From Rhodoferax sediminis (GTDB lineage: Bacteria; Pseudomonadota; Gammaproteobacteria; Burkholderiales; Burkholderiaceae_C), in assembly GCF_006970865.1 (NCBI RefSeq), contig NZ_CP035503.1, positions 2,245,001-2,309,000 of the forward strand: DNA of 64,000 nt, given 5' to 3'. The notes under the pieces were generated by a model, which was not told where the DNA came from, searched no databases, and saw nothing but the letters and a program-made list of their open reading frames with translations. Position numbers and translations under genes: made by a program. Below, piece by piece: positions 4,214 to 63,024 of the stretch; the stretch's first letter is position 1; every line of letters starts with the position of its first letter.

Positions 4214-5329
4214 TCAAGCCGTGCGCTCCATGCGCCATATCTGGTACTTGAGCGCCGCCACGGCACCGGCCAAAATGGCGGCGACGGCGACAAAGCTGGT
4301 CACACTCAGCGTGGAGATGCCGCTCAGGCCCTGCCCCACCGTGCACCCCAAGGCGGTAACGCCGCCCACGCCCATCAAGACGGCGCCCGACATGTGGTTG
4401 GCCACGTCTTCGGTGCTGCCAAAGCCTTCCCAGCGAAAGTTGCGCATGGCGACGGCGCAGGCTGCCGAGCCGACCACCACGCCGAACACCGAGACGATGC
4501 CGAGCGTGAGGACCTTGCTCTTGTCACTGAAAAACATGAGCCAGTCGAGCGTGTAGGCCGCGGGCGAAACAAAGCTCATGGCTTCGGCCCGGCCCGAGTT
4601 GGTGGCCAGAAAGGTCTCCTGCAGGGTCTCGGGGTGTTCGGCCACGTAGCCGAGATGGCCGCTGACCCACCACATGGCAACAATCACCGCGCCAATGCCC
4701 AGCCCCGCGAGCAGGTTGTCGGGGCGGCGAAAGTCCGGCCCCGCCAGCGCCCAGACGATCAGGGCGCCGCCCAGCAGCACGGCCAGAATCAGCCCGGCCA
4801 GCGCGGCTTTAATGCCAAAAGCGGCTGCAGCCCAATTGGGCAGTGCAGTGCCCGCTGCAAAATCAATAGCAACCTGATCCACGGTGTCAACCCGCGCCAC
4901 GGCCGTGATGCCCTTGAGGGTGGCAAAGGCGGCGACCCCCATCACGATAAAAACCATCAGCGACTTCAGGCTGCCGCCGCCGATGCGAATCAGGGTCTTG
5001 CTGCCGCAGCCCGAGGTCAGCACCATGCCGAAGCCAAACAGCGCACCGCCCACGGTGGCCGACAGCCAGATCCAGCGATTCGAGGCATACAGGGTTTTGC
5101 TTGGGTCGATTTGCCCGCTGTACACCAGCACGGCGAAACCGATCATGGCCACGCCTATGGCCATGCCCCACTGGCGCATGCGCGTCCAGTCGCCCATGTT
5201 GACGACGTCGCTGACCGCACCCATGGTGCAAAAGTGTGTGCGCTGGGCAATCGCCCCGAAGATGACCGAGAGAAGGAAGGCGGCCCACAGCACTTGCGTG
5301 GTGAGCGCCTGGATATCAGAAATTTGCAT
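4214..5329 (-). CDS. YeeE/YedE family sulfur-compound transporter (TsuA-like)
   Basis: A 371-residue inner-membrane protein with about nine to ten hydrophobic segments. It carries the paired conserved cysteine motifs of the family: THFCTMGAVSD near residue 32, TSGCGSKTLIRIG near 105 and LGCTVGQGLSG near 331. In thiosulfate transporter TsuA/YeeE these cysteines relay thiosulfate through the membrane, and that role is inferred here. A copy of the dispersed 65-bp repeat lies inside the gene (4808-4872) and encodes a stretch starting VAIDFAAGTALPNW. This should be a loop unique to this lineage. The stop overlaps the possible TTG start of tcdA. Confidence 0.85.
   Translation of the reverse strand: MQISDIQALTTQVLWAAFLLSVIFGAIAQRTHFCTMGAVSDVVNMGDWTRMRQWGMAIGVAMIGFAVLVYSGQIDPSKTLYASNRWIWLSATVGGALFGFGMVLTSGCGSKTLIRIGGGSLKSLMVFIVMGVAAFATLKGITAVARVDTVDQVAIDFAAGTALPNWAAAAFGIKAALAGLILAVLLGGALIVWALAGPDFRRPDNLLAGLGIGAVIVAMWWVSGHLGYVAEHPETLQETFLATNSGRAEAMSFVSPAAYTLDWLMFFSDKSKVLTLGIVSVFGVVVGSAACAVAMRNFRWEGFGSTEDVANHMSGAVLMGVGGVTALGCTVGQGLSGISTLSVTSFVAVAAILAGAVAALKYQIWRMERTA
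4808..4872 (-). repeat. Dispersed 65-bp repeat, copy 1 (inside YeeE/YedE gene)
   Basis: On the minus strand it starts gctattgattttgcagc and reaches aattgggct 42 nt from the start, then gcagcc and tttggcattaaa. It is read in frame 1 of the element (A-I-D-F-A...). See the family description in the findings. Confidence 0.7.
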
Positions 5330-5390
5330 CGCGCAATTTTAAAGGAGCGGTGACGCAGGACCGGCCACCCAACCTCCTCGCCGGCCACGC

Positions 5391-6173
5391 TTATTTCAGC
5401 TTGGCCAGCCGTTCCTTGGCGGCCTGGGCAGCTTCCGATTGCGGATAGGCCTTGATCAGGTCGCCCAGTGTCTTGCGTGCGGATTTCGTGTCGCCCAACT
5501 CGATCTGGCAATTGGCGATCGACAGGATGGACTCGGGTGCGCGCGCATGATCGGGGCTCTGTGCCACCAGCGCGCGGAAGTTGGTGATGGCGCCCTTGTA
5601 GTCGCGCGTCGCGTACTGGGCATTGCCGAGCCAAAATAGCGCGGACGGGTTGTAGCCGCTTTGCGGGTAGCGCTTGACGAAGCCGGCGAATGCGGTTTGC
5701 GCGCCCGCGAAATCACCCTGGCGGAAGGTGCCCAGCGCCGCTTCGAAGTCGGTTTTTTCTGCGGGGGTGGCCGAGAAAGTCTTGCCATCGACCGTAACCT
5801 GCGCCGGCTGGGTCGCGGCCTGCTGCGCGTCCGCGTTCTGCACGATGTCTTTTTGCTTGCGCTGAAGGTCCGCCACGTCACGCGCCAGCTGCTCGTCCTG
5901 CCCGCGCAGGTTGGCCATGTCGGCGCGCATGGCCTCGATCTGGCTTTGCAGGTCGAGCAGGCTGCGGCGCAGCTGGGCGTTGTCGTCCGACTGCTTGGCC
6001 TGGGCCGCGTCGGCCGCCTGGCGGCTGGCATCAACGCGCTGGCGCAGCTCCAGAATGGCGCGGCGCGCTTCGTCGTCCTCAAACAGGCCGGCGTGGGCGG
6101 CGGTCAAGGCCGCACAGGCCGACATCGCGAGGACGAAGCCGCGCAGCAGCTTCAGGGTCGCCACAGATCTCAT
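5391..6173 (-). CDS. cpoB: Tol-Pal system protein CpoB (YbgF)
   Basis: A 260-residue periplasmic protein. A signal peptide (residues 1 to about 28, ending AAHAG) is followed by a heptad coiled coil (about 35-110, many Q, R and L) and a C-terminal TPR region (about 135-260) with AFAGFVKRYPQSGYNPSALF and LGDLIKAYPQSEAAQAA. The protein coordinates peptidoglycan synthesis by PBP1B with Tol-driven outer-membrane constriction. Its ATG overlaps the stop of pal (ATGA at 6170-6173), so it is the last gene of tolB-pal-cpoB. Length is normal for the family. Confidence 0.95.
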   Translation of the reverse strand: MRSVATLKLLRGFVLAMSACAALTAAHAGLFEDDEARRAILELRQRVDASRQAADAAQAKQSDDNAQLRRSLLDLQSQIEAMRADMANLRGQDEQLARDVADLQRKQKDIVQNADAQQAATQPAQVTVDGKTFSATPAEKTDFEAALGTFRQGDFAGAQTAFAGFVKRYPQSGYNPSALFWLGNAQYATRDYKGAITNFRALVAQSPDHARAPESILSIANCQIELGDTKSARKTLGDLIKAYPQSEAAQAAKERLAKLK

Positions 6174-6697: not shown

Positions 6698-6720
6698 AGT
6701 CAAACTCCTGAAGTAAAAAT

Positions 6721-8007: not shown

Positions 8008-8178
8008 CTTGTCTGGTAAAACTCACAAACTGCCGTGTCTGATAATCATCAGGCCAGCCGTCATTATGCCCATTGCGACAATGGCACTGTCTCGCATCCT
8101 TCTTTACCGGAGTCATCTTTTGTTTCGAGCCTTCAAACTGAACCTTGAGCAGCACCCGCAAGCCCCGGTGGCAGCGGC

Positions 8179-12570: not shown

Positions 12571-13260
12571 TCAGGCCTTGCGGGCCGGCGCTTTTTTGGC
12601 AGCAGGTTTGGCGCGCGATCGCAGCGCGGTCTTGGTCGGTGCTTTGACCGGCACTCTGGCCGGCGTTTTAGCCGCAGTTTTGGCCGCCCGGGCCGCCGTT
12701 TTGACGGCGGACGAGCGGCGCAGTGAAGGCGATGTTTCCACCTTCTCTACTATTTTTGCAGCATGCTTTGCAGATTTGGCGGGGGCTGGCGCCACTTTTG
12801 ACTCGGTCTTTTTCGCTGCCGGCTTCCTCGCGCCAGCTTTTGCCGCCGGCTTGGCTGCCGATTTGGCCGCGGGCGCCACTTCGGGCCGGGCCGCGCCAAA
12901 CTTCAGGCGCACCGGCGTGCCGCCCCAGATTTCTTCCAGGTTGTAGTACGCCCGGATGGTGGGCTGCATGACGTGCACCACCGCGCGGCCGCAATCGACG
13001 ATGATCCATTCGCCGTTGGCTTCGCCCTCCATGCGCGGCTTGGGAAAACCGGCGTCGCGCACGGCATCGCGCACGCTGCTGGCCAGCGCCTTGGTCTGGC
13101 GATTGGAACTGCCCGAGGCGATGATGACTCGTTCAAACAGCGCGGACAGATGCTCGGTGTTGAACACCTGCAGGTCCTGTGCCTTCACGTCCTCCAGCCC
13201 ATCGACGATGGCGCGCTGGAGTTTCTGGGTGTCTTTTTTGGCGTTGGTTTCGGTGGTCAT
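12571..13260 (-). CDS. rsfS: Ribosome silencing factor RsfS with long basic tail
   Basis: The first 110 or so residues are the RsfS/Iojap domain: VDGLEDVKAQDLQVFNTE, FERVIIASGSSNRQTKALA, EWIIVDCGRAVVHVM and YYNLEEIWGG. It binds L14 and blocks subunit joining in stationary phase. Residues 115-229 are an Ala/Lys/Pro-rich, probably disordered tail of histone-H1-like composition, about twice the usual family length. ATG 13260 overlaps the nadD stop (TGATG). A TTG at 13263 is an alternative. A copy of the dispersed repeat lies within the tail in antisense orientation. Confidence 0.92.
   Translation of the reverse strand: MTTETNAKKDTQKLQRAIVDGLEDVKAQDLQVFNTEHLSALFERVIIASGSSNRQTKALASSVRDAVRDAGFPKPRMEGEANGEWIIVDCGRAVVHVMQPTIRAYYNLEEIWGGTPVRLKFGAARPEVAPAAKSAAKPAAKAGARKPAAKKTESKVAPAPAKSAKHAAKIVEKVETSPSLRRSSAVKTAARAAKTAAKTPARVPVKAPTKTALRSRAKPAAKKAPARKA
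12746..12803 (+). repeat. Dispersed 65-bp repeat, copy 2 (antisense in rsfS tail)
   Basis: Reads tctactatttttgcagc, then ggcgggggct ending 42 nt from the start, then ggcgcc and acttttgact. It is more diverged than most copies. It is read in antisense within the disordered tail of RsfS. Confidence 0.55.
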
Positions 13261-13880
13261 CAAGGAGCAAGGTAGAGGTGATGTTGTTCAATATAGCGTG
13301 CAACGGGGCCGGGAACCAGTTGGGCGATCCCCTGAGCCGTATTGTGAGGCTTGGCAGCCAGCGCACGGACCTGGGTGGCGCTGACCGGCATGGGGGGTAG
13401 TTGCAGCGGCGCAAACCGCCCCTGCGGATAATTTTTGGCATCAAATCCGGCGCCAGCCCTTTCCGGCTGTTGGCGTTCAGCTATTGAAATAGTAGCGGCC
13501 CGCAAAAGATCCTGCCACCGGTGCCAGCTCGGCAGGGCGCGTGCCTGGTCGGCGCCCATGATCAGGTACAGCTGCGCGCCGGGCTGCTCCCGCGCCAGTT
13601 CGCGCAGGGTGTCGATCGTGTAGGTGGGGCCGGCACGCAGCATTTCCCGGTCGTCCACCACCACGCCGGGCAGTCCGGCAAACGCCAGCCGCGCCATCGC
13701 CAGCCGGTGCTGCGCGGGCGTCAGCACCCGCGGTTTGTGCCAGGCGTGGCCGGTGGGAAAGATCCGCAGCTCATCGAGCTGCAATTGCGCCATGGCGGCC
13801 TGGACCAGCGCGACGTGGGCATTGTGGGGCGGATCGAATGCGCCGCCGAACATGCCGACGCGCCGCGGGCCGGCGGTCAA
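13260..13880 (-). CDS. nadD: Nicotinate-nucleotide adenylyltransferase NadD
   Basis: A 206-residue enzyme that adenylates nicotinate mononucleotide in NAD synthesis. The nucleotidyltransferase motif [15 protein letters not shown] is at residues 9-24, and [12 protein letters not shown] (the S-x-T/S-x-x-R signature) is near the C-terminus. [16 protein letters not shown] is the mononucleotide-binding region. The likely start is TTG 13880, which overlaps the hemF stop (TTGA) and places the motif at the normal distance; no ATG is available before the motif. A dispersed-repeat copy (13432-13496) encodes the [17 protein letters not shown] segment in a variable loop. Confidence 0.9.
13432..13496 (-). 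repeat. Dispersed 65-bp repeat, copy 3 (inside nadD)
   Basis: On the minus strand it starts gctactatttcaatagc and reaches gaaagggct 42 nt on, then ggcgcc, ggatttgatgcc and aaaaatt. It is read in element frame 1 (A-T-I-S-I-A-E...). Confidence 0.75.
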
Positions 13881-20788: not shown

Positions 20789-22077
20789 AAGATATTATTT
20801 TGATAGCAGACAGCGCAGATGCAACAAGGGCTGCAGCCTTATTACGCAGCACAGACACGATCCGCACGCGCGCCCGGGGCCTGCTGGCGCGCGCGCGCGC
20901 GGGCGAGTCCGTGTACTTCACGGTGCACGACGACGCGCTCGCCCAGGCAGCGGCGCTGGTGGCCGAAGTCACCCGCGAGCGCTACCCGGACCTGATCATT
21001 CCGTACCACAGCCGCTGGCGGCATTTCGAGGCCGGCGGGCTGGACCGCGTGGCGCTGCTGAACGAAGCCCTGGGCAAGGTATCGCCGCCGCGGCACGCGC
21101 GCGCGCAGATCGATCTGGCCGTCGTCAGCGTGCTGCTCGACGCCGGGGCCGGGGCCGACTGGCATTACCTCGATCCGCGCTCCGGGCAGCGCCTGACGCG
21201 CTCGGAAGGCCTGGGCGTGGCGAGTTTCAACGCCTTCAGCAAGGGCCTGTTTTCGAGCAAGCCGACGCAGCGCTGCCAGGCCGACGCGCCGGGCTTGATG
21301 GCGCTGACCGCGCGGCAGCTCGGCGCCGCGTTTCAGGTCAGTGTCGACAACCCGATGGTGGGGCTGGACGGGCGCGCCGCGCTGCTGCGCCGCCTGGGCG
21401 AGGTGATTGCCGATCAGCCCCGGATTTTTGGCGGTGCGGGAGGCTTGTGCCGACCCGGGCGCCTGTTCGATTACCTCACGGCGCCCGGGCAGACCGACGA
21501 TGGCGTAGATACAACCGAGGGCGCTCCCACGGTGCCGGCCAGCCGCATTCTTTCCACACTTTTAGCGGCCCTGGCTCCCATCTGGCCTACACACAACGCT
21601 ATTGAATCCATAGCGCTCGGCGATTGCTGGCGACATTCCGCCGTGCGCGGCGAAGGTCTCTCGGATGGCTGGATGCCCTTTCACAAGCTCTCGCAGTGGC
21701 TGACCTATTCGCTGCTGGAGCCGTTCGAGTGGGCCGGCGTCGCCGTCACCGGCCTCGATGCGCTCACGGGCCTGCCCGAATACCGCAACGGCGGCCTGCT
21801 GCTGGACGCCGGCGTGCTGCGCCTGAAGGACGCGGCGCTGGCCACCCAGACGCACCGCGCCGGCGATGAATTCGTCGTCGAATGGCGCGCCCTGACGGTT
21901 GCCCTGCTGGACGAACTGGCACCGCTGGTGCGCGAGCAGCTAGGATTGAGTGAATCGCAGATGCCGCTGGCTTGCGTGCTCGAGGGCGGCACCTGGGCCG
22001 CCGGCCGTGTGCTGGCGCAGCGCCTGCGCGGCGGCACGCCACCCCTCGCGATCGAGAGCGACGGAACCGTTTTTTGA
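20785..22077 (+). CDS. urc4: URC4/urg3 family uracil catabolism protein (DUF1688)
   Basis: A 430-residue protein of the URC4 group. Family segments include LIIPYHSRWRHFEAGG, VVSVLLDAGAGADWHYLD, EGLGVASFNAFSKGLFSS and CWRHSAVRGEGLSDGWMPFHKLSQWLTYSLLEPFEWAG. The enzyme activity in the URC route has not been fully defined. The start ATG 20785 overlaps the urc1 stop (ATGA). Two dispersed-repeat copies sit inside the gene. One (20791-20848) supplies codons 3 to about 21, so the N-terminus DIILIADSADATRAA is element-derived, and one (21557-21616) is antisense within a variable region. Confidence 0.85.
   Translation: MKDIILIADSADATRAAALLRSTDTIRTRARGLLARARAGESVYFTVHDDALAQAAALVAEVTRERYPDLIIPYHSRWRHFEAGGLDRVALLNEALGKVSPPRHARAQIDLAVVSVLLDAGAGADWHYLDPRSGQRLTRSEGLGVASFNAFSKGLFSSKPTQRCQADAPGLMALTARQLGAAFQVSVDNPMVGLDGRAALLRRLGEVIADQPRIFGGAGGLCRPGRLFDYLTAPGQTDDGVDTTEGAPTVPASRILSTLLAALAPIWPTHNAIESIALGDCWRHSAVRGEGLSDGWMPFHKLSQWLTYSLLEPFEWAGVAVTGLDALTGLPEYRNGGLLLDAGVLRLKDAALATQTHRAGDEFVVEWRALTVALLDELAPLVREQLGLSESQMPLACVLEGGTWAAGRVLAQRLRGGTPPLAIESDGTVF
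20791..20848 (+). repeat. Dispersed 65-bp repeat, copy 4 (5' end of urc4)
   Basis: Reads gatattattttgatagc, then acaagggct ending 42 nt from the start, then gcagcc and ttattacgc. It is translated in element frame 1 from the third codon of urc4. Confidence 0.7.
21557..21616 (-). repeat. Dispersed 65-bp repeat, copy 5 (antisense inside urc4)
   Basis: On the minus strand it reads gctatggattcaatagcg, then cagatgggagcc ending 42 nt from the start, then agggccgctaaaagtg. It is moderately diverged and is encoded antisense to urc4. Confidence 0.6.
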
Positions 22078-22758: not shown

Positions 22759-22833
22759 ATGAAAAGCCTCGCAGACCTCGAAACGCTGCGGCGGCAATTC
22801 GGACAAGGCGCGTGCTCGCTACAAGAACAATAG
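22759..22833 (+). CDS. 24-codon ORF, possible amidase-type gene remnant
   Basis: ATG 22759 to TAG 22831 encodes 24 residues, MKSLADLETLRRQFGQGACS and four more. The start resembles the N-terminus of amidase or allophanate hydrolase proteins (leader helix LxxLRxxF..G..S). The TAG stop is part of a dispersed repeat copy, suggesting a gene truncated by insertion or deletion. It is too short to be certain. Confidence 0.3.
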   Translation: MKSLADLETLRRQFGQGACSLQEQ

Positions 22834-22880
22834 CTGTCTGTGTACGTCAGTCAATGGCTGGAGACGAATTCTTTTAATTT
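22818..22880 (+). repeat. Dispersed 65-bp repeat, copy 6 (intergenic)
   Basis: Reads gctacaagaacaatagctg, then gtcaatggct ending 42 nt from the start, then ggagac and gaattctttta. It lies between upp and the GST-like gene. Its left arm supplies the TAG that ends the 24-codon ORF. Confidence 0.7.
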
Positions 22881-22900
22881 CTCTGTGAAATGCAACGCTC

Positions 22901-28670: not shown

Positions 28671-28689
28671 GGTCACCCGAGAGTTTTAT

Positions 28690-28750
28690 GGATGAAATAG
28701 GCCTTTAGACCTTACTGGATATCGGCATCTAGCTATTATTAAAATAGCAA
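28690..28750 (-). repeat. Dispersed 65-bp repeat, copy 7 (intergenic sbcB-clpA)
   Basis: On the minus strand it reads gctattttaataatagctag, then gtaaggtct ending 42 nt from the start, then aaaggcctatttcatcc. It fills the space between the clpA terminator and the sbcB start. Confidence 0.75.
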
Positions 28751-34667: not shown

Positions 34668-36011
34668 TTAAATGAGGCGTTGCGGCGATACCGTGAGATC
34701 AACCTCGCCATCCGCAAGGGTGGCACGCAGCGCCTGGCCGATGTGGGTCTGGCTCGCGCGGGTGATGGCGCTGCCCTCCAGGTCCGCCAGCCAGGCATAG
34801 CCGCGCTGCAGGACCAGCCGCGGATCGAGCAGCTCGAGGCGCAAACGCGCGCGCGCCAGCCGCTCCTGCGCGGCGGCCGCCGCGCGCCGCACCTTTTCAG
34901 GGAAATTGGCCTCCAGCCCTTGTACAAGGGACGCTTTATGCTGCAAATTCGATAGTGCGCCGTAGCGCAGGCGCTGCGCCTGATGGCCCAAACGCAGCTG
35001 CTGGCGAGCCAGCAACGCGGATGGCCGGCCAAGCCTGGAGGCCGCCAGATCGACGCGCTGGCTCTGGCTGTCGACCTGCCGCAGCAGCGCGTCGTGCAGC
35101 CGCTCCCCCGCCAGCGCCAGCGCCCCGAGCCAGACCTCGCGCGGCTGCGCCACCAGCTCGGCGGCGGCGGTCGGCGTGGGCGCGCGCAGATCGGCACAGA
35201 AGTCGGCGATCGTGAAATCGGTCTCATGGCCAACGCCGCTGACGAGTGGCACCGGGCTTTGCACGATGGTGCGCGCCAGCTGCTCGTCGTTGAACGCCCA
35301 CAAGTCTTCCATCGAACCACCGCCGCGCACCAGCAGGATCACGTCGATGCAAGGACTCTGCGTCGCGCCTTTCCTTGAAGCCAAATCGGCTGTTAGCCCT
35401 TGTCTGGCGGGCGTGAGCTGATACAAATTTGATAGCGCCCGTACCAGATCCGCCGGCGCGCCGGCACCCTGCACCAGCGCGGGCGAGAGCACCACCGGGA
35501 TGTGCGGCACGCGCCGCCTGAGCGCGGTCACCACGTCGTGCAGCGCGGCGGCGCCCAGCGACGTGACGATGCCGATGCCGCGCGGCATGGCGGGCAGTTC
35601 GCGTTTGCGGGCGGCATCGAACAAGCCCTCCTGCTCCAGCCTGGCCTTGAGTTTGAGAAACTGCTCGAACAACGCGCCCTGCCCGGCCCGACTCATGCTC
35701 TCCACGATCAATTGCAGGTCGCCGCGCTGCTCGTACACGCCCAGGCGCCCGCGCAACTCGACCAGCTCCCCATCGCGCGGTGCAAAGTCGAGCAGGCCAG
35801 CGGCGCGCCGGAACATGGCGCAACGGATCTGGCCGGTTTCGTCCTTGAGCGAGAAGTAGCAATGGCCGCTGGCTGCGCGTGAAAAATTCGAAATCTCGCC
35901 GCGCACCGCGACCGGGTTGAAGCGGGCGTCCAGCGCATCAGCAACGGCGCGGCACAGCGCGCCAACCTGCCAGATTCGCGGCGCCAGGGCTGGGGCGGGT
36001 ACCTCAGGCAC
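34668..36011 (-). CDS. xseA: Exodeoxyribonuclease VII large subunit
   Basis: A 447-residue protein with the N-terminal OB fold [31 protein letters not shown] sequence, then [40 protein letters not shown] and [19 protein letters not shown], and [15 protein letters not shown] before a C-terminal coiled coil. Two dispersed-repeat copies interrupt it. One adds about 19 residues between the VRAL and [11 protein letters not shown] segments, a loop that is only about 8 residues in E. coli; the other lies in the coiled coil. The likely start is GTG 36011, as upstream codons (to 36092) look non-coding. It may still be functional. Confidence 0.9.
34896..34958 (-). repeat. Dispersed 65-bp repeat, copy 8 (inside xseA)
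   Basis: Minus strand: actatcgaatttgcagc, then acaagggct ending 42 nt from the start, then ggaggcc and aatttccctgaaaa. Read in element frame 2 ([14 protein letters not shown]). Confidence 0.8.
35372..35438 (-). repeat. Dispersed 65-bp repeat, copy 9 (inside xseA)
   Basis: Minus strand: gctatcaaatttgtatcag, then agacaagggct ending 42 nt from the start, then aacagcc, gatttggcttcaagg. Read in element frame 2 (L-S-N-L-Y-Q-L-T). It produces an extra loop in XseA. Confidence 0.85.
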
Positions 36012-36350
36012 GGCTTGACCCCGGCGACGGCAAGCGACAACCCTCCACAGAGGCCGGCACCATACCGGATAAAGCACCCAACCCAGACGCAAACGCTGAT
36101 GTTATGGTGCAAGCGATTGATTTCATTGAAATTTCTTCCGCTCAAAATGTAAGCGTTTTGTCACATTCATGCGCTGGCGCGGCTTGTGACAAGGTGCGAG
36201 CCTACTTCTCAACAAAGTTATCCACAATTTCTGTTGGTTTTTCGGGCTCGTCACGGTCCCGCATTATCGGGGCATGGAGAAAGTCGGTGCAGGGGCGGCT
36301 TGGCTGCCCCGCTGACCTGCTGCGCGTAGGGGTCGGGACATAAGCCCATC
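36012..36350. other. 339-bp intergenic region with inverted repeat and DnaA-box match
   Basis: No convincing gene on either strand. It contains an inverted repeat ttgtcaca (36158-36165) / tgtgacaa (36185-36192) and an exact DnaA-box match, ttatccaca at 36218-36226. The only adjacent gene start is that of xseA at the left end. The AT-richer centre (36100-36260) suggests regulatory DNA or a short RNA gene. Confidence 0.5.
36218..36226 (+). promoter_or_regulatory. DnaA-box consensus match
   Basis: ttatccaca matches the high-affinity DnaA box TTATNCACA exactly. A single site far from dnaA is not an origin; it could titrate DnaA or be chance. Confidence 0.4.
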
Positions 36351-36376
36351 AAAAAAACGGACCCGAGTGGGTCCGC
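36351..36376 (-). terminator. Terminator of the 36.4-kb small secreted protein gene
   Basis: Stem ggaccc / gggtcc with loop gagt (36359-36374) and a seven-T run on the minus strand (36351-36357). The same hairpin recurs after the paralogous gene at 36.9 kb. Confidence 0.9.
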
Positions 36377-36397
36377 CGGGTTGCAGCGAATCTGTCG

Positions 36398-36736
36398 TCA
36401 GTACTTCTCGCCGGACTGGATTTCGCCTTTCTTGATGGCTTCGGCAGTCTCGGCCTTGCGCTTTGCACGGGCTTGCGCACGCTCAGCTTTGGTAAACTTG
36501 CGGGCGGTCCCGGCGCTCTTGTCGGAGCCTTCTTGCGGCATCTCGTTCTTGGCAGCGGCAGCGCCTCCAGCCTTGCGTTCCGCTTTGGCCGCAGCCTTCT
36601 CGGCCGGGGTCGCCGGGGCAGAGGGAGCCGCCATGGAGCCGGCAGAGTCGGCTTCGCCGCCCTTGGTCTGGGCAAAAGCACTCACCACCAGCATCTGGGC
36701 CAGGGCGATGCCCAGCGTCAACATGATTTTTTTCAT
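36398..36736 (-). CDS. Small secreted basic protein, tandem paralogue A
   Basis: 112 residues. Signal peptide MKKIMLTLGIALAQMLVVSAF, cleavage after AFA, then TKGGEADSAGS, a PSAPATPAEKAA motif and a Lys/Arg/Ala-rich helical tail (RAQARAKRKAETAEAIKKGE). About half the residues match the next gene, including TKGGEAD, APSAPATPAEKAA, GAAAAK and MPQEG/PQEG. AGGAG lies 5 bases before ATG 36736. I do not recognise a function; the composition suggests binding to polyanions. Confidence 0.8.
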   Translation of the reverse strand: MKKIMLTLGIALAQMLVVSAFAQTKGGEADSAGSMAAPSAPATPAEKAAAKAERKAGGAAAAKNEMPQEGSDKSAGTARKFTKAERAQARAKRKAETAEAIKKGEIQSGEKY

Positions 36737-36909
36737 ACCGGCTCCTGTGTGGATGGTTGAACGAAATTGATCGCGGTTACTGCAAATTCTGCATAACCCC
36801 CCGTGCACCAGTATAGGAAGACCTGTCGCAACAATCAAAAGGATTGACGTCCGTCTTCCACGGCCTCCCCTATTGCATCACCGAGCCCTGTTGACGGGCA
36901 CCCCCCCCC

Positions 36910-36938
36910 AAAAAAAAAACGGACCCGAGTGGGTCCGC
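36910..36938 (-). terminator. Terminator of the 36.97-kb paralogue
   Basis: Hairpin 36921-36936 (ggacccgagtgggtcc), identical to the one after paralogue A, followed on the minus strand by a run of ten T (36910-36919). A C9 tract (36901-36909) adjoins it. Confidence 0.9.
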
Positions 36939-36968
36939 CTTTGTGCAGCGAGTGCGTCTTCAGGCAGA

Positions 36969-37310
36969 TTATTTCTGGCCAGGTACAGCCTGGATTTCGC
37001 CACTCTTGACTGCAGCAGCAGCAGCAGCCTTGCGCTTGGCGTGGGCCGCCTTACGCTGTGCTTTGGTGGTCTTGTGCGCAGTGCCGGCGCTCTGGGGCAT
37101 ACCCTCTTGCGGCGTTTCGCTCTTCGCGGCAGCAGCGCCTTCAGTCTTGCGATCGGTTCTGGCAGCGGCCTTCTCGGCGGGGGTCGCCGGGGCAGACGGA
37201 GCCGCCTTGGCGCCCGTTGGGTCGGCTTCGCCACCCTTGGTTTGGGCAAAAGCGCTCACGGCCAGCATTTGGGCCAGGGCGATACTCAGAGGCAAAATGA
37301 TTTTTTTCAT
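36969..37310 (-). CDS. Small secreted basic protein, tandem paralogue B
   Basis: 113 residues. Signal peptide MKKIILPLSIALAQMLAVSAF, cleaved after AFA, followed by TKGGEADPTGAK, APSAPATPAEKAA, GAAAAKSETPQEGMPQSAGTAHK and a Lys/Ala tail (KAAHAKRKAAAAAAVKSGE). The gene, its signal sequence and its terminator are clearly duplicated from (or into) the neighbour at 36398-36736, 232 bp apart. The ribosome binding site is in gaatcctgtatg-type context, weaker than for paralogue A. Function unknown. Confidence 0.8.
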   Translation of the reverse strand: MKKIILPLSIALAQMLAVSAFAQTKGGEADPTGAKAAPSAPATPAEKAAARTDRKTEGAAAAKSETPQEGMPQSAGTAHKTTKAQRKAAHAKRKAAAAAAVKSGEIQAVPGQK

Positions 37311-39638: not shown

Positions 39639-40640
39639 ATGCGCGATGCATTGCTGCGGGCCTGGACGCGACGCGGCGCGCTGGCCTGGCTGCTGTGGCC
39701 GGTCTCCCTGGTTTTCGGCGTGTTGAGCGCGGCGCGGCGCGCGCTGTACCGGACTGGCCTCTTCAAGACGCACCGCGCCGGCGCACATCTGCCGGTGGTT
39801 GTGGTCGTCGGCAACGTGGTGGCGGGCGGCGCCGGCAAAACGCCGGTCGTCATGGCGCTGGTGCGCCACTGGCAGGCGCGTGGACTTGTCGTCGGTGTGA
39901 TCTCGCGCGGCTACGGACGGCAGACGACCGATTGCCGCGAGGTTCAAAGCGACAGCCTGGCCTCGGAAGTGGGTGACGAGCCCGCCCTGATCCGGCGTGC
40001 TACAGACGCTCCTGTTTTTGTAGCACGCCGGCGCGTTGACGCGGCCCGTGCGCTGCTCGCGGCCTACCCTGCCACCCAGGTGATCGTCAGCGACGACGGC
40101 CTGCAGCACTACGCGCTCCGGCGCGACATCGAGATTTGCGTGTTTGACGACCGCGGCGTCGGCAACGGTTTCCTGCTGCCTGCAGGCCCGCTGCGCGAAC
40201 ACTGGCCGCGCCCGGTCGATCTGGTACTGCACAGCGGAGCGCACCCCGCCTTTGCCGGCTTCACCTCAAAGCGCGCACTGGCAGATTTCGCCATCCGGCA
40301 GGACGGCACGCGGCTGCCCCTGGCGCAGTTGCAGGGCCAGTCGCTGCTCGCTGTGGCGGCCATCGCGCGGCCCGAGGGGTTTTTCAGCATGCTGCGCGAA
40401 CGCGGCCTGACTCTGACGCACACCGTCGCGTTGCCCGATCACTACGATTTTGATAGCTGGATGCCTGCACCCGACAAGGGCTACACCCTGATTTGCACCG
40501 AAAAAGATGCACTCAAACTGTGGCGCGGCCATCCCGCTGCACTGGCCGTGCCATTGCAATTTGCGCCCGAGCCGGCCTTTCTCGCGGCCGTCGATGCGCT
40601 GCTGGACGCAAAGCTATCATCACCGCACACAGCCACCTGA
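39639..40640 (+). CDS. lpxK: Tetraacyldisaccharide 4'-kinase LpxK
   Basis: A 333-residue enzyme phosphorylating the lipid A disaccharide. Walker A-like [15 protein letters not shown] (about 58-71), SRGYGR (about 91), [18 protein letters not shown] (DDGLQ motif), [10 protein letters not shown] and LPDHYDF follow. A dispersed-repeat copy (40441-40505) encodes the [21 protein letters not shown] region, close to the conserved TEKDA motif. It follows exbD by 4 bp. Confidence 0.95.
40441..40505 (+). repeat. Dispersed 65-bp repeat, copy 10 (inside lpxK)
   Basis: Reads actacgattttgatagctgg, then acaagggct ending 42 nt from the start, then acaccctgatttgcaccgaaaa. It overlaps the start of the conserved TEKDA segment. 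Confidence 0.7.
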
Positions 40641-41657: not shown

Positions 41658-41740
41658 AGCCCCCACGCTTGCCACTTCGTGTGTTGCGCTGCCCCCCGTG
41701 GGGGCCGAACTTGCTCGGGGCGGCCCTTCGCTGCGTTAGC
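41658..41740 (+). repeat. GC-rich intergenic repeat family, copy A
   Basis: Begins gcccccacgcttgccact right after the kdsB stop, has a palindromic core gcccccac...gtgggggc, and ends ttgctcggggcgg, cccttcgctgcgtt. It is shared with copies at 54.0 and 61.2 kb. The stem could act as a terminator or transcript stabiliser. Confidence 0.75.
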
Positions 41741-42558: not shown

Positions 42559-43521
42559 TCAAGCGGGCATCAGCGCCAGCATCAGCGCCACGCGGGCCTT
42601 CGCGGCGGACAGACCCTGCGAATCGGGAATGGCATCACCCGGCTGGCCCAGCACCCGGCCGTTGGGGCAGCGGCTGGCGCGCACTACCTTGACACCGGCG
42701 CGCTGGGCTTTGAGCAGCGCAGCCTCCAGATCGTGGTGCAGCGTGCCGTTGCCGGTGGCGGCCACGACCAGGCCCTGCACGCCCTGCGCCACCAGCGCCT
42801 CCACCACGGCGCCACTGGCGCCGGCGTAGTTCATGACGATCTCGACGCGCGGCCAGTCCATGGTGTTTACTATATTTTCAATAGCATGCTGTTGTGACCC
42901 GACAAGGGCTTCGGGCCAATTTCGTAGCAAACGCAGCGCACCCTCCTCCACATACCCGAGCGGCCCGGCATCACCCGAGTTGAAGGCATTGATCCGGTAG
43001 GGATGCACTTTTTGCACGTCGAACGCGCTGTGGAGGGTGCCCGCACAGACGGCCACCACGCCGCGCGCGCCGGCGTGCATGGCCACCGCCACCGCGTCCA
43101 GCACATTCTGCGGCCCGTCGGGCGCAACGGACGTGGCCGGGCGCATGGCGCAGGTCAGCACCACCGGCTTGGCTGGATTGAGGACGGCCTGCAGGAAGTA
43201 CGCGGTCTCCTCCAGCGTATCGGTGCCATGGGTGATGACGATGCCCTGCACTTCGGGCTGTGCCAGCCAGTGCGCCACGCGGCTGGCCAACTGCTGCCAG
43301 ACGGCAAAACTCATGTCCTTGCTGTCGATCTGCGCCACCTGTTCGGTGATCAGCGCACGCCCGGCGAAGACTGAGGACAGTGCCGGAATGGCCTCCAGCA
43401 ACTGCGCCACGCCGACCTGTGCAGCCGTGTAGCCGATGTTGTCGGCGGCGCTGTCCGCCGTGCCGGCAATCGTGCCGCCCGTGCCCAGCACCACGATTTT
43501 TTTGTCGATTTGTTGTGCCAT
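42559..43521 (-). CDS. Asparaginase family protein
   Basis: A 320-residue L-asparaginase-type amidohydrolase. First catalytic Thr in VLGTGGTIAGTAD (residues 11-23), second in VITHGTDTLEETAYFL (THGTDT). Other segments: KDMSFAVWQQLASR and YAGASGAVVEALV. There is no signal peptide, so it is probably cytoplasmic. ATG 43521 gives MAQQIDKK. A dispersed-repeat copy is inserted in antisense between EEGALRLL and VEIVMNYAGA and enlarges a loop. Convergent with adk, 34 bp apart. Confidence 0.9.
   Translation of the reverse strand: MAQQIDKKIVVLGTGGTIAGTADSAADNIGYTAAQVGVAQLLEAIPALSSVFAGRALITEQVAQIDSKDMSFAVWQQLASRVAHWLAQPEVQGIVITHGTDTLEETAYFLQAVLNPAKPVVLTCAMRPATSVAPDGPQNVLDAVAVAMHAGARGVVAVCAGTLHSAFDVQKVHPYRINAFNSGDAGPLGYVEEGALRLLRNWPEALVGSQQHAIENIVNTMDWPRVEIVMNYAGASGAVVEALVAQGVQGLVVAATGNGTLHHDLEAALLKAQRAGVKVVRASRCPNGRVLGQPGDAIPDSQGLSAAKARVALMLALMPA
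42866..42931 (+). repeat. Dispersed 65-bp repeat, copy 11 (antisense in asparaginase)
   Basis: Reads actatattttcaatagcatg, then gacaagggct ending 42 nt from the start, then tcgggcc, aatttcgtagcaaa. One of the best-preserved copies. Antisense to the gene. Confidence 0.85.
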
Positions 43522-44439: not shown

Positions 44440-44784
44440 ATGGGACTCGCATTGTTCACAGCCTCCAGGCTCTTCGCACCGCTTCACAACGCCATCAACT
44501 GGCTGATGCCGGGTATCCCCCGCAACACTTGGGCGCACCAGCCGGCGGCGGATGCCCGGCCTTATCAAGGTGCTATTAGCTCAATAGCTGCTCATGCCCA
44601 TGTCACAAGGGCTTCAGGCCGAAATCATTCGAATACAGGCACGCACAGGCCGCTGCGCGTATTGCGTGTGGTGGACGCGAGTGCAGCGCCGGCCAGTGCC
44701 GGGCGGATGGTCATCTCTGGCCGCATGGCGGATGTATGCGCCGAACTGGAACGGCTGGCCGCCGGGGAAGCAACCCTGCACTGA
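44440..44784 (+). CDS. Conserved small hypothetical protein
   Basis: 114 residues. The N-terminal part is MGLALFTASRLFAPLHNAINW and the C-terminal part RPLRVLRVVDASAAPASAGRMVISGRMADVCAELERLAA looks conserved in Comamonadaceae (from memory). AAAGG precedes ATG 44440. A dispersed-repeat copy (44570-44634) encodes residues 44-64 in frame, separating the two halves, so the ancestral protein was about 20 residues shorter. Function unknown. Confidence 0.65.
   Translation: MGLALFTASRLFAPLHNAINWLMPGIPRNTWAHQPAADARPYQGAISSIAAHAHVTRASGRNHSNTGTHRPLRVLRVVDASAAPASAGRMVISGRMADVCAELERLAAGEATLH
44570..44634 (+). repeat. Dispersed 65-bp repeat, copy 12 (inside 114-residue protein gene)
   Basis: Reads gctattagctcaatagctg, then acaagggct ending 42 nt from the start, then tcaggcc and gaaatcattcgaat. 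Element frame 1 (A-I-S-S-I-A-A-H-A-H-V-T-R-A). Confidence 0.8.
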
Positions 44785-52735: not shown

Positions 52736-53995
<1,260 letters not shown>

Positions 53996-54174
53996 GCCCC
54001 CACGCTTGCCACTGCGTGTGCTGCGCTGGGCTCGCGCAGCGTCCGTGCGCGCAGCTGTACAGTGGAGCGAGCCCATGCCGGGCCTGCGCTATGCACGTGC
54101 CGAGGCATCACGCTTCGGTCCGGCCCCCGAGGGGGCTGAACTTGCTCGGGGCGGCCCTTCGCTGCGTTCCTGAG
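53996..54174 (+). repeat. GC-rich intergenic repeat family, copy B (expanded)
   Basis: Begins gcccccacgcttgccact immediately after the acyl-CoA dehydrogenase stop and ends gaacttgctcggggcgg, cccttcgctgcgtt, as copy A does. An additional stretch of about 100 bp in the middle (about 54030-54120) contains its own inverted segments (gggctcgc...gcgagccc). Confidence 0.75.
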
Positions 54175-57283: not shown

Positions 57284-57360
<77 letters not shown>

Positions 57361-58386: not shown

Positions 58387-58426
58387 TCTCGGGCAAATGA
58401 CCACCCCCTCTTTCGAGAACTGACTG

Positions 58427-60226: not shown

Positions 60227-60301
60227 TGCCGCGTTAAACTCGCTTGGTGCGCGGTGCACCGATCAACGGCGGAGCTCATCCGCCGTTTTCATTTCTCACT
60301 G

Positions 60302-61165
60302 ATGGACTTCCCCACCTTCCTCATCCAGCTCCTCAACAGCGTGCAGTACGGCCTGCTGCTGTTCATGCTGGCCGCCGGGCTCACGCTGATCTTCGGCATC
60401 ATAGGGGTGGTCAACCTCGCGCACGGCAGCTTTTACATGCTGGGCGCCTACCTGGCGTATTCGCTCAGCAGCCTGCTGGGCAGCCTCGCTGTGGCCATCG
60501 CCTGCGGCGCCGTGTTGTCGGTCATTTTTGGCCTGGCGCTGGAGTGGCTGCTGTTTCGCCACTTTTACGAGCGCGACCATCTGGACCAGGTGCTGCTGAC
60601 GTTTGGCCTGATCTACATTTTTGAAGAAATGCGCTCCATCCTGTGGGGTGACGATGTGCACAGCGTGCCGATTCCGGATGTCCTCGCTGCCTCCATCCCG
60701 CTGACCGACACCCTGTCGTACCCCGTGTACCGGCTGGTCATCTCCGGTGTCTGCGTGGCACTGGCCATCGGACTGTATTTGCTGATCTCGAAAACCCGCC
60801 TGGGCATGAAGATTCGCGCCGGTGCCTTCAACCGCGACATGACCGAGGCGCTGGGCGTCAACATCAAGCTGATCCACGCGATCGTGTTTGCGCTGGGTGT
60901 CGCGCTGGCCTCGGTGGCAGGCATGATTGCCGCGCCCGTTTCCAGCGTCTATCCCAACATGGGCTCGCAGGTGCTGATCATGTGCTTCGTGGTAGTGGTG
61001 ATTGGCGGCATTGGCTCGGTGCGCGGTGCGCTGATCGCGGCGCTGCTGGTGGGCCTGGTGGACACCTTCGGCAAGGTCCTGCTGCCGCACATATCGGGCA
61101 TGCTGGTGTACATGCTGATGGCCGCCGTGCTGCTGTGGAAGCCGCAAGGTTTGTTCAAGCAATGA
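60302..61165 (+). CDS. livH: Branched-chain amino acid ABC transporter permease LivH-type
   Basis: A 287-residue inner-membrane protein with about eight hydrophobic helices. FGIIGVVNLAHGSFYMLGAYLAY is the family signature near the N-terminus, and the EAA-like loop ALGVNIKLIHAIVFALG plus VVVVIGGIGSVRGALIAALLVG near the C-terminus. Pairs with the LivM-type permease. ATG 60302. Confidence 0.93.
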   Translation: MDFPTFLIQLLNSVQYGLLLFMLAAGLTLIFGIIGVVNLAHGSFYMLGAYLAYSLSSLLGSLAVAIACGAVLSVIFGLALEWLLFRHFYERDHLDQVLLTFGLIYIFEEMRSILWGDDVHSVPIPDVLAASIPLTDTLSYPVYRLVISGVCVALAIGLYLLISKTRLGMKIRAGAFNRDMTEALGVNIKLIHAIVFALGVALASVAGMIAAPVSSVYPNMGSQVLIMCFVVVVIGGIGSVRGALIAALLVGLVDTFGKVLLPHISGMLVYMLMAAVLLWKPQGLFKQ

Positions 61166-61169
61166 GTAA

Positions 61170-61242
61170 CGCAGGACCGCTCCAAGGTACGAAGGCCCCC
61201 TCGGGGGGCAGCGCCGCACGCGCAGCGGCAAGCGTGGGGGCT
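61170..61242 (-). repeat. GC-rich intergenic repeat family, copy C
   Basis: On the minus strand it reads gcccccacgcttgccgct, then gcgctgccccccgaggggg, and continues ccttcgtacc. It lies between livH and livM and is inverted relative to copies A and B. It interrupts the operon, so it might modulate livM relative to livH. Confidence 0.75.
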
Positions 61243-61244
61243 AC

Positions 61245-62258
61245 ATGAGCGCGCCAAAGGCCAATCTGGAGGTTCTGCCGCGAAGCGTGCAGGTGGCGCT
61301 GACGCTCGGTCTGGGAGCGCTGCTCGCCTTCCCGTTTGCCGGCAGCGATTTTTATACGCAGATGGTCACGCGCATGATGATCATGGCGATTTTTGCGATG
61401 AGCCTGGACTTGCTGCAGGGCGTCACCGGCCTGGTGTCGCTCGGTCATGCCGCCTACTTCGGGCTGGCAGGCTATGCACTGGCCTTTTTGACTCCTGCGG
61501 GCGCCGCGGTCAGCCTGTGGTGGACGCTGCCGGCCGCCGTGGCGGCCTCGGGCCTGGCGGCGCTCATCATCGGCTTCTTCGTGGTGCGCACCCAGGGCAT
61601 CTACTTCATCATGGTCACCATGGCATTCGCGCAGATGGTGTTCTACCTGTTCTTCGACAACAAGGTGCTGGGCGGCTCCGACGGGCTGTACATCAACTTC
61701 AAGCCCGATGCCAGCATCTTCGGCTGGGTGCCGTTCGATCTGGACAGCAAGGCGACGATGTACTACGTCACGCTGGCCCTCATGCTGCTGGTCTATGTGT
61801 TCCTGCGCCGCCTGCTGTGGAGTCCTTTTGGCCGCGCGCTCGCCGGCATTCGCGTGAACGAGCACCGCATGCGCGCCATGGGCTTCGGCACCTTTGGCTA
61901 CAAGCTCTCGGCCTTTACGCTGGCCGGTGCGCTGGCCGGGCTCGCGGGCTATCTCTGGGGCTGCCAGACCGGCTACATGAATCCCGAGCTGATGGGTTTT
62001 TACATGAGCGCCGACGCCCTCATGATGGTGATCCTGGGCGGCATGGGCAATTTCGCCGGGGCGATTGTCGGTGCGTTTGCGTTCGAGGTCCTGCTGAACG
62101 TGTTCAAGGATCTGCCGCAGGTCGGCGGTATCAATCTGGGCAAACACTGGCAGTTGTGGATAGGCCTGTTCATCGTCCTGGTCGTGACGTTTGCGCCGCG
62201 CGGGCTGCTCGGCCTGGTTCAACGCCTGCGCCCGCGCAAGGAGAGCGCCGGTGAGTGA
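61245..62258 (+). CDS. livM: Branched-chain amino acid ABC transporter permease LivM-type
   Basis: A 337-residue inner-membrane protein. MSLDLLQGVTGLVSLGHAAYFGLAGYAL is the family motif, RTQGIYFIMVTMAFAQMVFYL and AGIRVNEHRMRAMGFGTFGYKLSAF the cytoplasmic loop, and MVILGGMGNFAGAIVGAFAF the end. Its last bases overlap the livG GTG start (62251). Confidence 0.93.
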   Translation: MSAPKANLEVLPRSVQVALTLGLGALLAFPFAGSDFYTQMVTRMMIMAIFAMSLDLLQGVTGLVSLGHAAYFGLAGYALAFLTPAGAAVSLWWTLPAAVAASGLAALIIGFFVVRTQGIYFIMVTMAFAQMVFYLFFDNKVLGGSDGLYINFKPDASIFGWVPFDLDSKATMYYVTLALMLLVYVFLRRLLWSPFGRALAGIRVNEHRMRAMGFGTFGYKLSAFTLAGALAGLAGYLWGCQTGYMNPELMGFYMSADALMMVILGGMGNFAGAIVGAFAFEVLLNVFKDLPQVGGINLGKHWQLWIGLFIVLVVTFAPRGLLGLVQRLRPRKESAGE

Positions 62259-63024
62259 AGTCCTCCTGTCCGCCACCAACCTCGTCAAACGCTTTGGTGG
62301 CCTGGCCGCGGTCAACGACGTCTCCATTGATTTGTGGCGCAACCGCATTCACGCCGTGATCGGCCCCAATGGCGCCGGCAAATCGACATTGACCCACCTG
62401 CTGTCCGGCGACCTGCCGCCGACCACGGGCTCGGTGTCCATCGGTGGCAAGGACGTGACGGGCTGGGCGCCCGAGCGGATCTCGCACCAGGGACTGGGCC
62501 GCAGCTACCAGAAGACGAATATCTTTCTGCCCTTCACGGTATGGGACAACGTGCGGCTGGCGGCCCAGTCACGCGAGGCCCAAAGCCCATGGAACCCGCT
62601 CGGCTGGTTCTCCGACACCCGCCGTGTCGCTACGAAATCAGTAGCTACTCATGCACGCTGCGAAAGGGCTATCGAGCTTTCCGGCTTGAAAGACCGGCGG
62701 CGTGCGGTGGCCAGCACCATCAGCCACGGCGAGCAGCGCCAGCTCGAGATCGCCATGACGCTGGCCACCGAGCCGCAGGTGCTGCTGCTCGACGAGCCGC
62801 TGGCCGGCATGGGCGTGGCGGAGGCCGAACGCATGGTGGCGCTGTTGCTGCTCATCAAGCGCGAGCACGCCATGCTGCTGGTCGAGCACGACATGGACGC
62901 CGTCTTCGCACTGGCCGACCGGCTCACCGTCATGGTGAACGGCCAGGTGATCGCCAGCGGCACGCCGGCGGAAATACGCGCCGACGCGGGTGTGCAGGCG
63001 GCCTATCTGGGCGAGGAGCATTGA
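62251..63024 (+). CDS. livG: Branched-chain amino acid ABC transporter ATP-binding protein LivG-type
   Basis: 257 residues. Walker A GPNGAGKSTL (about 38-47), Q-loop SYQKTNIFLPF, signature SHGEQRQLEIAMTLA in place of LSGGQ, Walker B LLLDEPLAGMG, then LLVEHDMDAVFALADR. GTG 62251. A dispersed-repeat copy encodes the RRVATKSVATHARCERAIEL part before the signature helix, slightly longer than in typical LivG. Confidence 0.92.
   Translation: MSEVLLSATNLVKRFGGLAAVNDVSIDLWRNRIHAVIGPNGAGKSTLTHLLSGDLPPTTGSVSIGGKDVTGWAPERISHQGLGRSYQKTNIFLPFTVWDNVRLAAQSREAQSPWNPLGWFSDTRRVATKSVATHARCERAIELSGLKDRRRAVASTISHGEQRQLEIAMTLATEPQVLLLDEPLAGMGVAEAERMVALLLLIKREHAMLLVEHDMDAVFALADRLTVMVNGQVIASGTPAEIRADAGVQAAYLGEEH
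62627..62692 (+). repeat. Dispersed 65-bp repeat, copy 13 (inside livG)
   Basis: Reads gctacgaaatcagtagctac, then cgaaagggct ending 42 nt from the start, then atcgagctttccggcttgaaa. Element frame 1 (A-T-K-S-V-A-T-H-A-R). Confidence 0.75.

Follow-up and report, generated by a model that had tools for sequence, protein, structure and literature searches.

A 65-bp dispersed motif of Comamonadaceae chromosomes as a possible six-turn signal that biases gene transfer or organises the chromosome

Described repeats and the motif of Rhodoferax sediminis

Among the sequences that bacteria carry in many copies, the uptake signals of the Pasteurellaceae (USS) and of Neisseria (DUS) provide the closest parallel to the motif described here: they likewise occur in hundreds to thousands of copies on both strands, are built in place by point changes, are tolerated in genes while enriched between them, and differ among genera as dialects, with the USS further combining a core with phased A/T tracts. 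They are held to spread by a bias in transfer. Uptake signals are, however, about 10 to 35 bp in length, whereas the present motif spans 65 bp and carries 41 to 49 bits. The HIP1 sequence of cyanobacteria is likewise over-abundant and kept in coding sequence without insertion, but is an 8-bp perfect palindrome rather than a 65-bp composite, while the palindromic elements of Rickettsia likewise lie in frame inside open reading frames and contain palindromic parts, but are insertions, as most of the sites tested here are not.

As described in passages of PMC3110155, the Beta-proteobacterial repeat element (BRE) is dispersed, occurs in Comamonadaceae genomes and sometimes lies within coding sequence, and in Bordetella it is 75-91 bp long, 69% GC, can be tandem and is mostly intergenic; it is that description, rather than an alignment of letters, that sets it apart from the 65-bp motif. 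A separate GC-rich repeat in the window (the whole stretch of 64,000 nucleotides of the R. sediminis chromosome analysed here) resembles BRE as so described. Passages of Tong et al. (2017; PMC5217627) report the pairs ATAGCT(N)22CAAAAG in Polaromonas naphthalenivorans CJ2 (125 copies) and GCTTAT(N)5AAGCG in Acidovorax ebreus (114 copies) as separate, short, mainly intergenic and of unknown function, and those passages link them neither to each other nor to a 65-bp motif, in-gene copies or a taxonomic range. The two pairs have the exact spacing of motif positions 13-46 and 25-40, respectively, the A. ebreus pair being set beside the motif by spacing alone. The first pair occurs at 38 places in Polaromonas CG9_12, versus 1 for a reversed control pattern, and the 11 of those places read with their flanks score 35.9 to 52.2 as whole 65-mers. 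On the evidence of those passages, fragments of the motif were already published in 2017, as motif pairs without a function. The open-licence PMC literature contained no match to the motif strings, nor to DNA uptake sequence together with Comamonadaceae.

A preliminary description of the window listed 13 copies of the repeat on both strands, at coordinates that prove correct. A position-weight matrix grown from 6 seeds converged on exactly these, and a covariance model built from them recovered the same 13, each 65 nt long and with E <= 6.1e-7, along with one further weak match (E = 0.95). A scan of shuffled sequence, which that description had proposed as a check, returned 0 copies, ten first-order Markov resamplings of the window giving no above-threshold match to the matrix. 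The exact 42-nt spacing that it had noted in all 13 copies is correct, and the constancy extends to the whole motif, over which the copies are ungapped for 65 nt. The layout comprises R-CTAY, an A/T tract and RTAGC, followed by a GCGC-type block, a GGGCT- or GCGCT-type block, and two A/T tracts about 10 bp apart. The copies are as follows, in window coordinates:

4806..4870, minus strand: in the YeeE/Sulf_transp gene, sense (matrix, covariance model, Pfam)
12746..12810, plus strand: antisense to the RsfS reading frame, beyond the RsfS domain (matrix, covariance model, Pfam)
13432..13496, minus strand: in nadD (CTP_transf_like ORF), sense (matrix, covariance model, Pfam)
20791..20855, plus strand: at the urc4/DUF1688 N-terminus, sense; urc4 site 1 (matrix, covariance model, Pfam)
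21550..21614, minus strand: in urc4/DUF1688, antisense; urc4 site 2 (matrix, covariance model, orthologue alignment)
22818..22882, plus strand: intergenic (matrix, covariance model, gene calls)
28684..28748, minus strand: intergenic, with the top refined-matrix score of the window (matrix, gene calls)
34892..34956, minus strand: in xseA site 2, sense; no net insertion relative to family orthologues
35372..35436, minus strand: in xseA site 1, sense, within an indel-rich loop
40441..40505, plus strand: in lpxK, sense, over the DHYDF...LICTEKDA stretch
42869..42933, plus strand: in asparaginase, antisense
44572..44636, plus strand: in a small fast-evolving ORF
62629..62693, plus strand: in a livG-type ABC ATPase, sense (covariance model, Pfam)

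The host genes named in the preliminary description agree with Pfam (sulphur transporter, nadD-type cytidylyltransferase, DUF1688 for its urc4, xseA, asparaginase, livG-type ABC ATPase, LpxK and RsfS), its division into 11 in-gene and 2 intergenic copies is compatible with the reading frames of this analysis, and the copies do lie on both strands, in several frames and mostly in genes, none of the 13 being seen to interrupt a host frame. The small ORF at 44572, which has homologues in 26 of 80 adk loci, was scored as intergenic by the crude gene caller and is counted among the 11 in-gene copies.

Insertion or letter changes at the in-gene sites

The preliminary description had taken the repeat for an inserted mobile element, comparable to the in-ORF palindromic elements of Rickettsia, and the frame-preserving in-gene copies would agree with that; the proposal nevertheless fails at most tested sites, where motif-free orthologues align straight through. 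The orthologue alignment that it had suggested gave no or small length differences at lpxK, xseA site 2, asparaginase, a kdsB site and urc4 site 2. At the kdsB site (a name that we take to apply from position and known motifs, together with a CTP_transf_3 match of the window's copy) each of three motif-bearing genomes aligned without gaps to all of the 74 motif-free loci, and the conserved MSTAAHAI stretch of KdsB is overwritten by the motif with its conserved residues kept. With the window's copies as queries, motif-free loci were gapless in 51 of 56 cases at xseA site 2, in 16 of 50 at lpxK (14 more being one residue off) and in 12 of 45 at asparaginase, where most others lay within nine residues; the motif itself was found in 26 of 76 other lpxK loci and 16 of 61 other asparaginase loci. 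The motif stretch at urc4 site 2 is ungapped in the eight orthologues shown, one with a 5-residue insertion at the edge, while the N-terminus at urc4 site 1 is unalignable to distant orthologues.

Sites of changed length also occur, and count against writing in place under transfer: xseA site 1, whose loop exceeds that of the shortest orthologues by up to 60 nt; the kdsB site of L089, where 7 comparisons give an excess of 60 to 90 nt; asparaginase in L074; and a site between genes in L049. Across 1378 motif-free comparisons from 83 queries (pairs being dropped where the flank match ended >45 nt from the motif or the spacing differed by >250 nt), a step of 65 nt was seen 0 times, and one of 66 nt 7 times, all of them at the strongly length-variable xseA site 1; these steps, like the longer xseA and L089 kdsB sites, would favour an insertion. 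Recent near-identical copies of the kind expected of a MITE were absent from the sampled sets of 94, 46 and 37 copies, in which the top pair identity was 0.75 to 0.77. That identity is a little higher than column permutation gives (in G000 and G016 alike, it is attained by 1 permutation in 200), and rare copying may have occurred, a point against the preferred explanation. Outside the motif, conservation is weak at bases -1 and -2 and otherwise slight.

The palindromic arms noted in the preliminary description do not covary in their pairs: in both palindromes of the motif, and in four genomes, paired counts lie close to the independence expectation, and for pair 5:13 in 94 G000 copies the commonest combination is C-A. 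This indicates that no hairpin is under selection, and a hairpin or RNA function was rejected; neither a maintained palindromic stem nor, at most tested sites, a net in-frame insertion, the hallmarks of the Rickettsia type, was found. Independent variation at the positions of both palindromes is instead as expected of duplex DNA read by a protein. The view that the element was selected to be read through is better replaced by that of overwriting under coding constraint; in the two xseA copies, whose phase is such that the TAG of the motif would be read as a codon, the letters there are TAT and CAG. At several sites, as judged from these alignments, the motif has been written over coding sequence under such constraint, by letter changes rather than by insertion.

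Once in place, the conserved motif positions change more slowly than their flanks, and the variable ones faster. Substitutions at strong positions, flanks and weak positions numbered 4/247, 339/7775 and 31/286 between the window and G002 (13 sites); 14/228, 627/7165 and 50/264 between the window and G004 (12 sites); 12/247, 660/7777 and 50/285 between G002 and G004 (13 sites); and 15/114, 556/3562 and 35/126 between the window and G005 (6 sites), these counts carrying some ascertainment bias from a first matrix trained on own-genome copies that included the window. In the last and more distant pair the strong positions are barely below the flanks (0.132 vs 0.156), which counts against the preferred explanation given below. 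At lpxK, where ten strong motif positions fall on third bases of codons, conservation of these bases is 0.878 in 23 motif-bearing rows (the L080 copy included) and 0.545 in 33 motif-free rows, the rest of the gene giving 0.58, with 17 gapped and 4 intermediate rows set aside. Decayed lpxK copies persist in motif-poor genomes, with matrix scores of 23.0 (L080), 17.8 (L078) and 15.0 (L095), against -15.9 or less in the 33 motif-free rows.

Abundance and dialects among chromosomes, plasmids and phages

Twenty random stretches of the same chromosome, 400 kb in all, contained 56 copies (0 to 7 each), while 400 kb of order-3 Markov sequence contained 0; the density is about 1 copy per 7 kb, or an estimated 600 per genome, and the window is ordinary for its chromosome in this respect. 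Copies are spread over the chromosome at irregular spacing (0 to 7 per 20 kb), and at least 145 strong matches exist, found among the 150 scored of 1811 candidates. The number of matches in each genome is a lower bound, 105 to 150 candidates being scored per genome; some relatives reach 1 copy per 3 kb, and motif-rich genomes are estimated to hold several hundred to over a thousand copies. The region from 3.07 to 3.51 Mb is poor in motif (2 of at least 145 strong matches); in a 20-kb stretch of it 6 of 8 scanned ORFs match Pfam, all in metabolic, regulatory or transport families, and the low copy number is suggestive of accessory DNA. By crude gene calls, 43 of 69 copies lie inside genes, which departs from the extragenic location of REP/RAYT repeats, and 25 are intergenic (36% vs 18% expected).

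As with uptake signals, copies are numerous and stand in place within genes and between them, on both strands, and they take the form of genus dialects of one motif: a GGGCT dialect in G000 and G008, a GCGCTTG..CAAGCGC dialect in G021 and G016, and the dialect of Polaromonas CG9_12, TGCGCAAAAG. Genomes are mostly either motif-rich or motif-poor, and on a tree of 50 tips (L058, of 51 rows, was left out for gaps) the poor lineages are nested in rich clades, some having lost the motif wholesale; related sets that differ in motif content are L080 vs L045/L052, L065 vs L039/L041/L042, L078 vs L073, and L072 vs L063.

For the Polaromonas strains JS666 and CJ2 the plasmids alone were scanned, and these 250 kb gave 0 matches vs about 36 expected. 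One strict pattern matches 79 stretches of viral contigs; since it recognises 7 of 70 copies from the own genome and none of the 83 from G021 and G016, it gives no estimate of density in phages. Ten motif-bearing viral ORFs comprised 3 of terminase gpA, 1 Mu-like portal, 3 of other families and 3 without a match; the presence of the motif in some phage late genes counts against a role in transfer.

Readings of the motif and candidate trans factors

The motif behaves like a duplex-DNA signal that is recognised in trans and kept in place. The best guess, with a probability of about 0.4, is that the repeat, rather than being an insertion sequence, serves as a DNA signal throughout the chromosome and is maintained by a transfer drive akin to that of uptake signals. 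A putative protein machinery would read the motif as duplex DNA; fragments carrying it would most likely be transferred or taken up better, the bias acting perhaps at uptake or perhaps at packaging, and would recombine into the homologous place, such that motif-bearing alleles would win and the motif would accumulate point by point, while loss of the reader protein would lead to decay of the copies. Stated more broadly, and equally tentatively, the motif may be a 65-bp, six-turn site for a putative machine that would bias the transfer of genes between cells or, alternatively, organise the chromosome; the site would have been lost several times and its sequence retuned into the dialects of the genera. 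If so, no longer DNA signal overlaid in place on genes is known to us.

Unlike that of USS and DUS, the uptake role proposed here is an analogy, and the status of comEC, the competence channel gene and sole competence gene in the comparison, did not significantly predict motif content, which counts against that role. Among rich genomes 3 of 37, and among poor ones 5 of 30, had a comEC that was apparently broken or absent (Fisher p = 0.45), with the duplicates G002 = G040 and G008 = G045 each counted once and ambiguous assemblies omitted (rich G006, G051, G057 and G063; poor G014). The rich genomes with a broken-looking comEC are G009, G050 and G055; G051 and G063 have no comEC match, and counting them as absent gives 5 of 39 rich.

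Close behind the transfer drive, though itself somewhat unlikely, stands a chromosome-organising or replication or segregation site, bound at hundreds of places by a resident protein or complex, each site being directly selected with no transfer drive. The constraint at orthologous sites, the chromosome-wide spread, the missing plasmid copies and the independently varying palindromes would suit it, and wholesale loss in lineages would fit loss of the factor. Set against this are the irregular spacing, the heavy load of hundreds of individually selected sites, and the information content: by arithmetic, 600 places could be marked with roughly 14 bits, but a copy carries far more, 41 to 49 bits in the three genomes sampled best. 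Binding sites of single proteins rarely carry so much. Replichore strand polarity is also missing from 78 of at least 131 matches in G021 (the own genome being tabulated by tenths only): the best co-orientation was 44 of 78, with a random mean of 47, and an orientation signal of KOPS or Chi type was rejected.

The same want of polarity, and a length far beyond that of known marks, make it improbable that the motif marks DNA as self for a defence or recombination system, in the manner of a Chi-like protective site, in spite of its absence from the sampled plasmids and its presence in phage late genes, as expected of an evasion tag. Slightly more doubtful is a REP-like family made by a resident RAYT (REP-associated tyrosine transposase, Y1_Tnp) or a relative and moving as single-stranded hairpins. 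Each motif-rich genome of the relatives set has exactly one Y1_Tnp gene, except G021 with 20 matches, a motif copy overlaps the 3' end of the gene in 8 of 20 loci fetched, and RTAG plus a stem in the G021/G016 dialect recalls the REP layout; but the stem does not covary, in-gene sites are gapless, and recent copies were absent among those sampled. Nor does the correlation with a transposase or other trans factor envisaged in the preliminary description emerge for RAYT: rich and poor genomes are alike in having a relative of the gene, present in 49 of 50 named genomes (the sole miss, G049, being a rich MAG), and RAYT was rejected as the discriminating factor. The inserted Rickettsia-type element is, on the site lengths and copy identities given above, very improbable.

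Ordinary selection on binding sites does not readily account for a signal that carries 41 to 49 bits and is kept at hundreds of places, in part by overwriting conserved genes. The motif offers a natural experiment on whether uptake signals arise by transfer drive or by selection, and on which large complexes read bacterial chromosomes, and the related genomes with and without the motif allow the reading factor to be sought directly. Provided that the estimates of copy number are right, residues of hundreds of proteins would have been shaped by the motif, which would matter for annotation and for protein alignments.

Abundance, consensus and dialects

Matrix and covariance scans agreed in recovering the same 13 copies that the preliminary description had placed in the window, every one ungapped across 65 nt; the comparison with shuffled sequence proposed there yielded no copies: 10 sequences resampled from the window under a Markov model were empty, as were 400 kb generated by an order-3 Markov model and scanned with a refined matrix. 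The same refined matrix identified 56 copies in 400 kb of the Rhodoferax sediminis chromosome (20 random 20-kb stretches), corresponding to one per ~7 kb and, by extrapolation, to ~600 copies per 4.39-Mb genome, and the window (13 copies in 64 kb) is therefore only slightly richer than the chromosome average. At least 145 matches were obtained from 150 candidates scored in this genome. The consensus of the motif here consists of RCTAY, an A/T tract followed by RTAGC, the block GCGCA (positions 23-27), CAAGGGCT (35-42), ATTT (51-54) and AA (62-63); its core contains 41 bits of information, its flanks little. Just two of the 145 strong matches fell at 3.07-3.51 Mb, where one sampled stretch (L133) carries metabolic genes and has an accessory look.

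Related genomes display distinct dialects: two relatives, G021 and G016, in whose sampled sequence the motif recurs at 3.3 and 2.4 copies per 10 kb, respectively, share the central blocks GCGCTTG-N5-CAAGCGC, and Polaromonas CG9_12 carries TGCGCA...TGCGCAAAAG. Within a relatives set of 40 genomes (R. sediminis included), 17 displayed matches, all from the window's own family and one (G022) with only two, and 16 genomes of other families in the same order had none. The profile scan of family genomes that had been suggested found the motif abundant in 27 of 50 named genomes under a pooled model, where 59 to 105 of the 105 scored candidates matched, the remaining 23 being poor (0 to 26). On a three-gene tree the rich or poor state required nine parsimony changes, versus 16.8 for shuffled labels, with poor genomes nested inside rich clades; judging from the decayed lpxK-site copies retained in three poor genomes (L080, L078 and L095), motif loss is part of this history.

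Tong et al. 2017 (PMC5217627) reported two potential novel motif pairs whose spacings match parts of this motif: ATAGCT(N)22CAAAAG, from P. naphthalenivorans, matches positions 13-46, and GCTTAT(N)5AAGCG, from A. ebreus, matches positions 25-40. The former was confirmed as a motif dialect in Polaromonas CG9_12. In the open-licence PMC papers searched, neither the motif as a whole nor its copies inside genes nor its dialects were found described. The Beta-proteobacterial repeat element (BRE; PMC3110155) is, by its description, longer and GC-rich. A GC-rich repeat (CCCCCGAGGGGGC...) distinct from the 65-bp motif, at window positions 41658-41737, 53967-54168 and 61170-61270, resembles the BRE as described in print. 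Positions 36345-37289 hold two paralogous 300-nt segments, 78% identical and separated by 574 nt, with similar flanks.

Insertion or origin in place

The family-wide insertion test employed the adk neighbourhood in 80 named loci. Window sites compared (counts from queries with the window and locus L038):

21550..21614, minus strand: urc4 site 2, compared with eight orthologues
34892..34956, minus strand: xseA site 2, motif in 7 of 63 spanning loci
35372..35436, minus strand: xseA site 1, motif in 13 of 64
40441..40505, plus strand: lpxK site, motif in 26 of 76
42869..42933, plus strand: asparaginase site, motif in 16 of 61

Motif-free loci aligned without gaps in 51 of 56 cases at xseA site 2, in 16 of 50 at lpxK (14 further ones being off by one residue) and in 12 of 45 at asparaginase, where most of the rest differed by nine residues or fewer, and the urc4 site 2 stretch lacked internal gaps in the eight orthologues shown. 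In kdsB the motif overlies the conserved MSTAAHAI region in three genomes representing two separate lineages (L045, and the three-gene-tree sisters L049 and L105), and all 74 motif-free loci were gapless against each. Longer sites were found at xseA site 1 (exceeding the shortest orthologues by as much as 60 nt), kdsB of L089 (60 to 90 nt) and asparaginase of L074 (45 nt), all in length-variable stretches. Among 1378 motif-free comparisons a 65-nt length step never occurred, and a 66-nt step occurred seven times, always at xseA site 1. At lpxK, asparaginase, xseA site 2, the MSTAAHAI site of kdsB and urc4 site 2 the orthologue alignments speak against an inserted element of the kind originally envisaged, and the three longer stretches count in its favour; at most sites tested, the motif is not an insertion. 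Within the copy sets of three genomes the closest pair reached 75 to 77% identity, a little more than column permutations gave, and therefore no recent copying was seen among those sampled copies.

Maintenance of the motif in place

The motif is maintained in place. Relative G002 shares all 13 window copies at the same places and G004 shares 12, and substitutions were fewest at high-information (strong) positions, intermediate in flanks and most frequent at variable (weak) positions: 4/247, 339/7775 and 31/286, respectively, against G002, and 14/228, 627/7165 and 50/264 against G004. In the more distant comparison with G005 (15/114, 556/3562 and 35/126) the gap between strong positions and flanks was small. 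Third codon positions of lpxK underlying ten strong positions displayed a conservation of 0.878 in 23 motif-bearing rows; the 33 motif-free rows gave 0.545, and elsewhere in the gene the value was ~0.58. No broken host frame was seen in the window, as had been claimed, and in both xseA copies the in-frame TAG of the motif is replaced, by TAT and CAG; the overall pattern looks like that of a DNA signal in competition with codon constraint.

Paired counts in four genomes were near independence, with no covariation in either palindrome, and the commonest combination at positions 5 and 13 in relative G000 was C-A. Adjacent A/T-tract bases were exchanged jointly (TT for AA), which points to recognition of duplex shape. 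Copies use both strands, with no replichore bias among 78 listed G021 matches. By crude gene calls, intergenic copies are over-represented (25 of 69, versus 18% expected), with few (2 of 25) lying between divergent genes.

Candidate factors and a possible transfer-based reading

As to the suggested trans factor, a REP-associated tyrosine transposase (RAYT)-like gene occurs both in motif-rich genomes and in motif-poor ones. At 8 of 20 loci (L287, L289, L290, L294, L296, L298, L299 and L306; scores 18 to 33) a motif copy overlaps the 3' end of that gene. The competence channel gene comEC did not separate the two groups significantly: it looks broken or missing in 3 of the 37 rich genomes and in 5 of the 30 poor ones (p = 0.45). 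In the comEC loci examined (L372-L377), its N-terminal third is without a match in four genomes, and the gene is split by ~1.7 kb in Variovorax Sphag1AA and lies in several frames in G009.

Plasmid sequence from Polaromonas JS666 and CJ2, sampled as five 50-kb pieces, contained no copies, versus ~36 expected from the copy density at four chromosomal loci of other Polaromonas. The motif also occurs on some viral contigs: of 10 ORFs scanned, three are terminase gpA genes with a copy in the C-terminal tail, and a Mu-like portal gene has one behind its domain (L255:5995, L244:4419, L212:5668 and L234:10508 for these four).

The preferred reading is a signal in duplex DNA that is maintained where it stands, most likely through transfer drive, a tentative reading with a probability of about 0.4; a chromosome-organising site ranks close behind. 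Under transfer drive, a candidate reader would recognise the motif, and a transfer step would favour the DNA that bears it.
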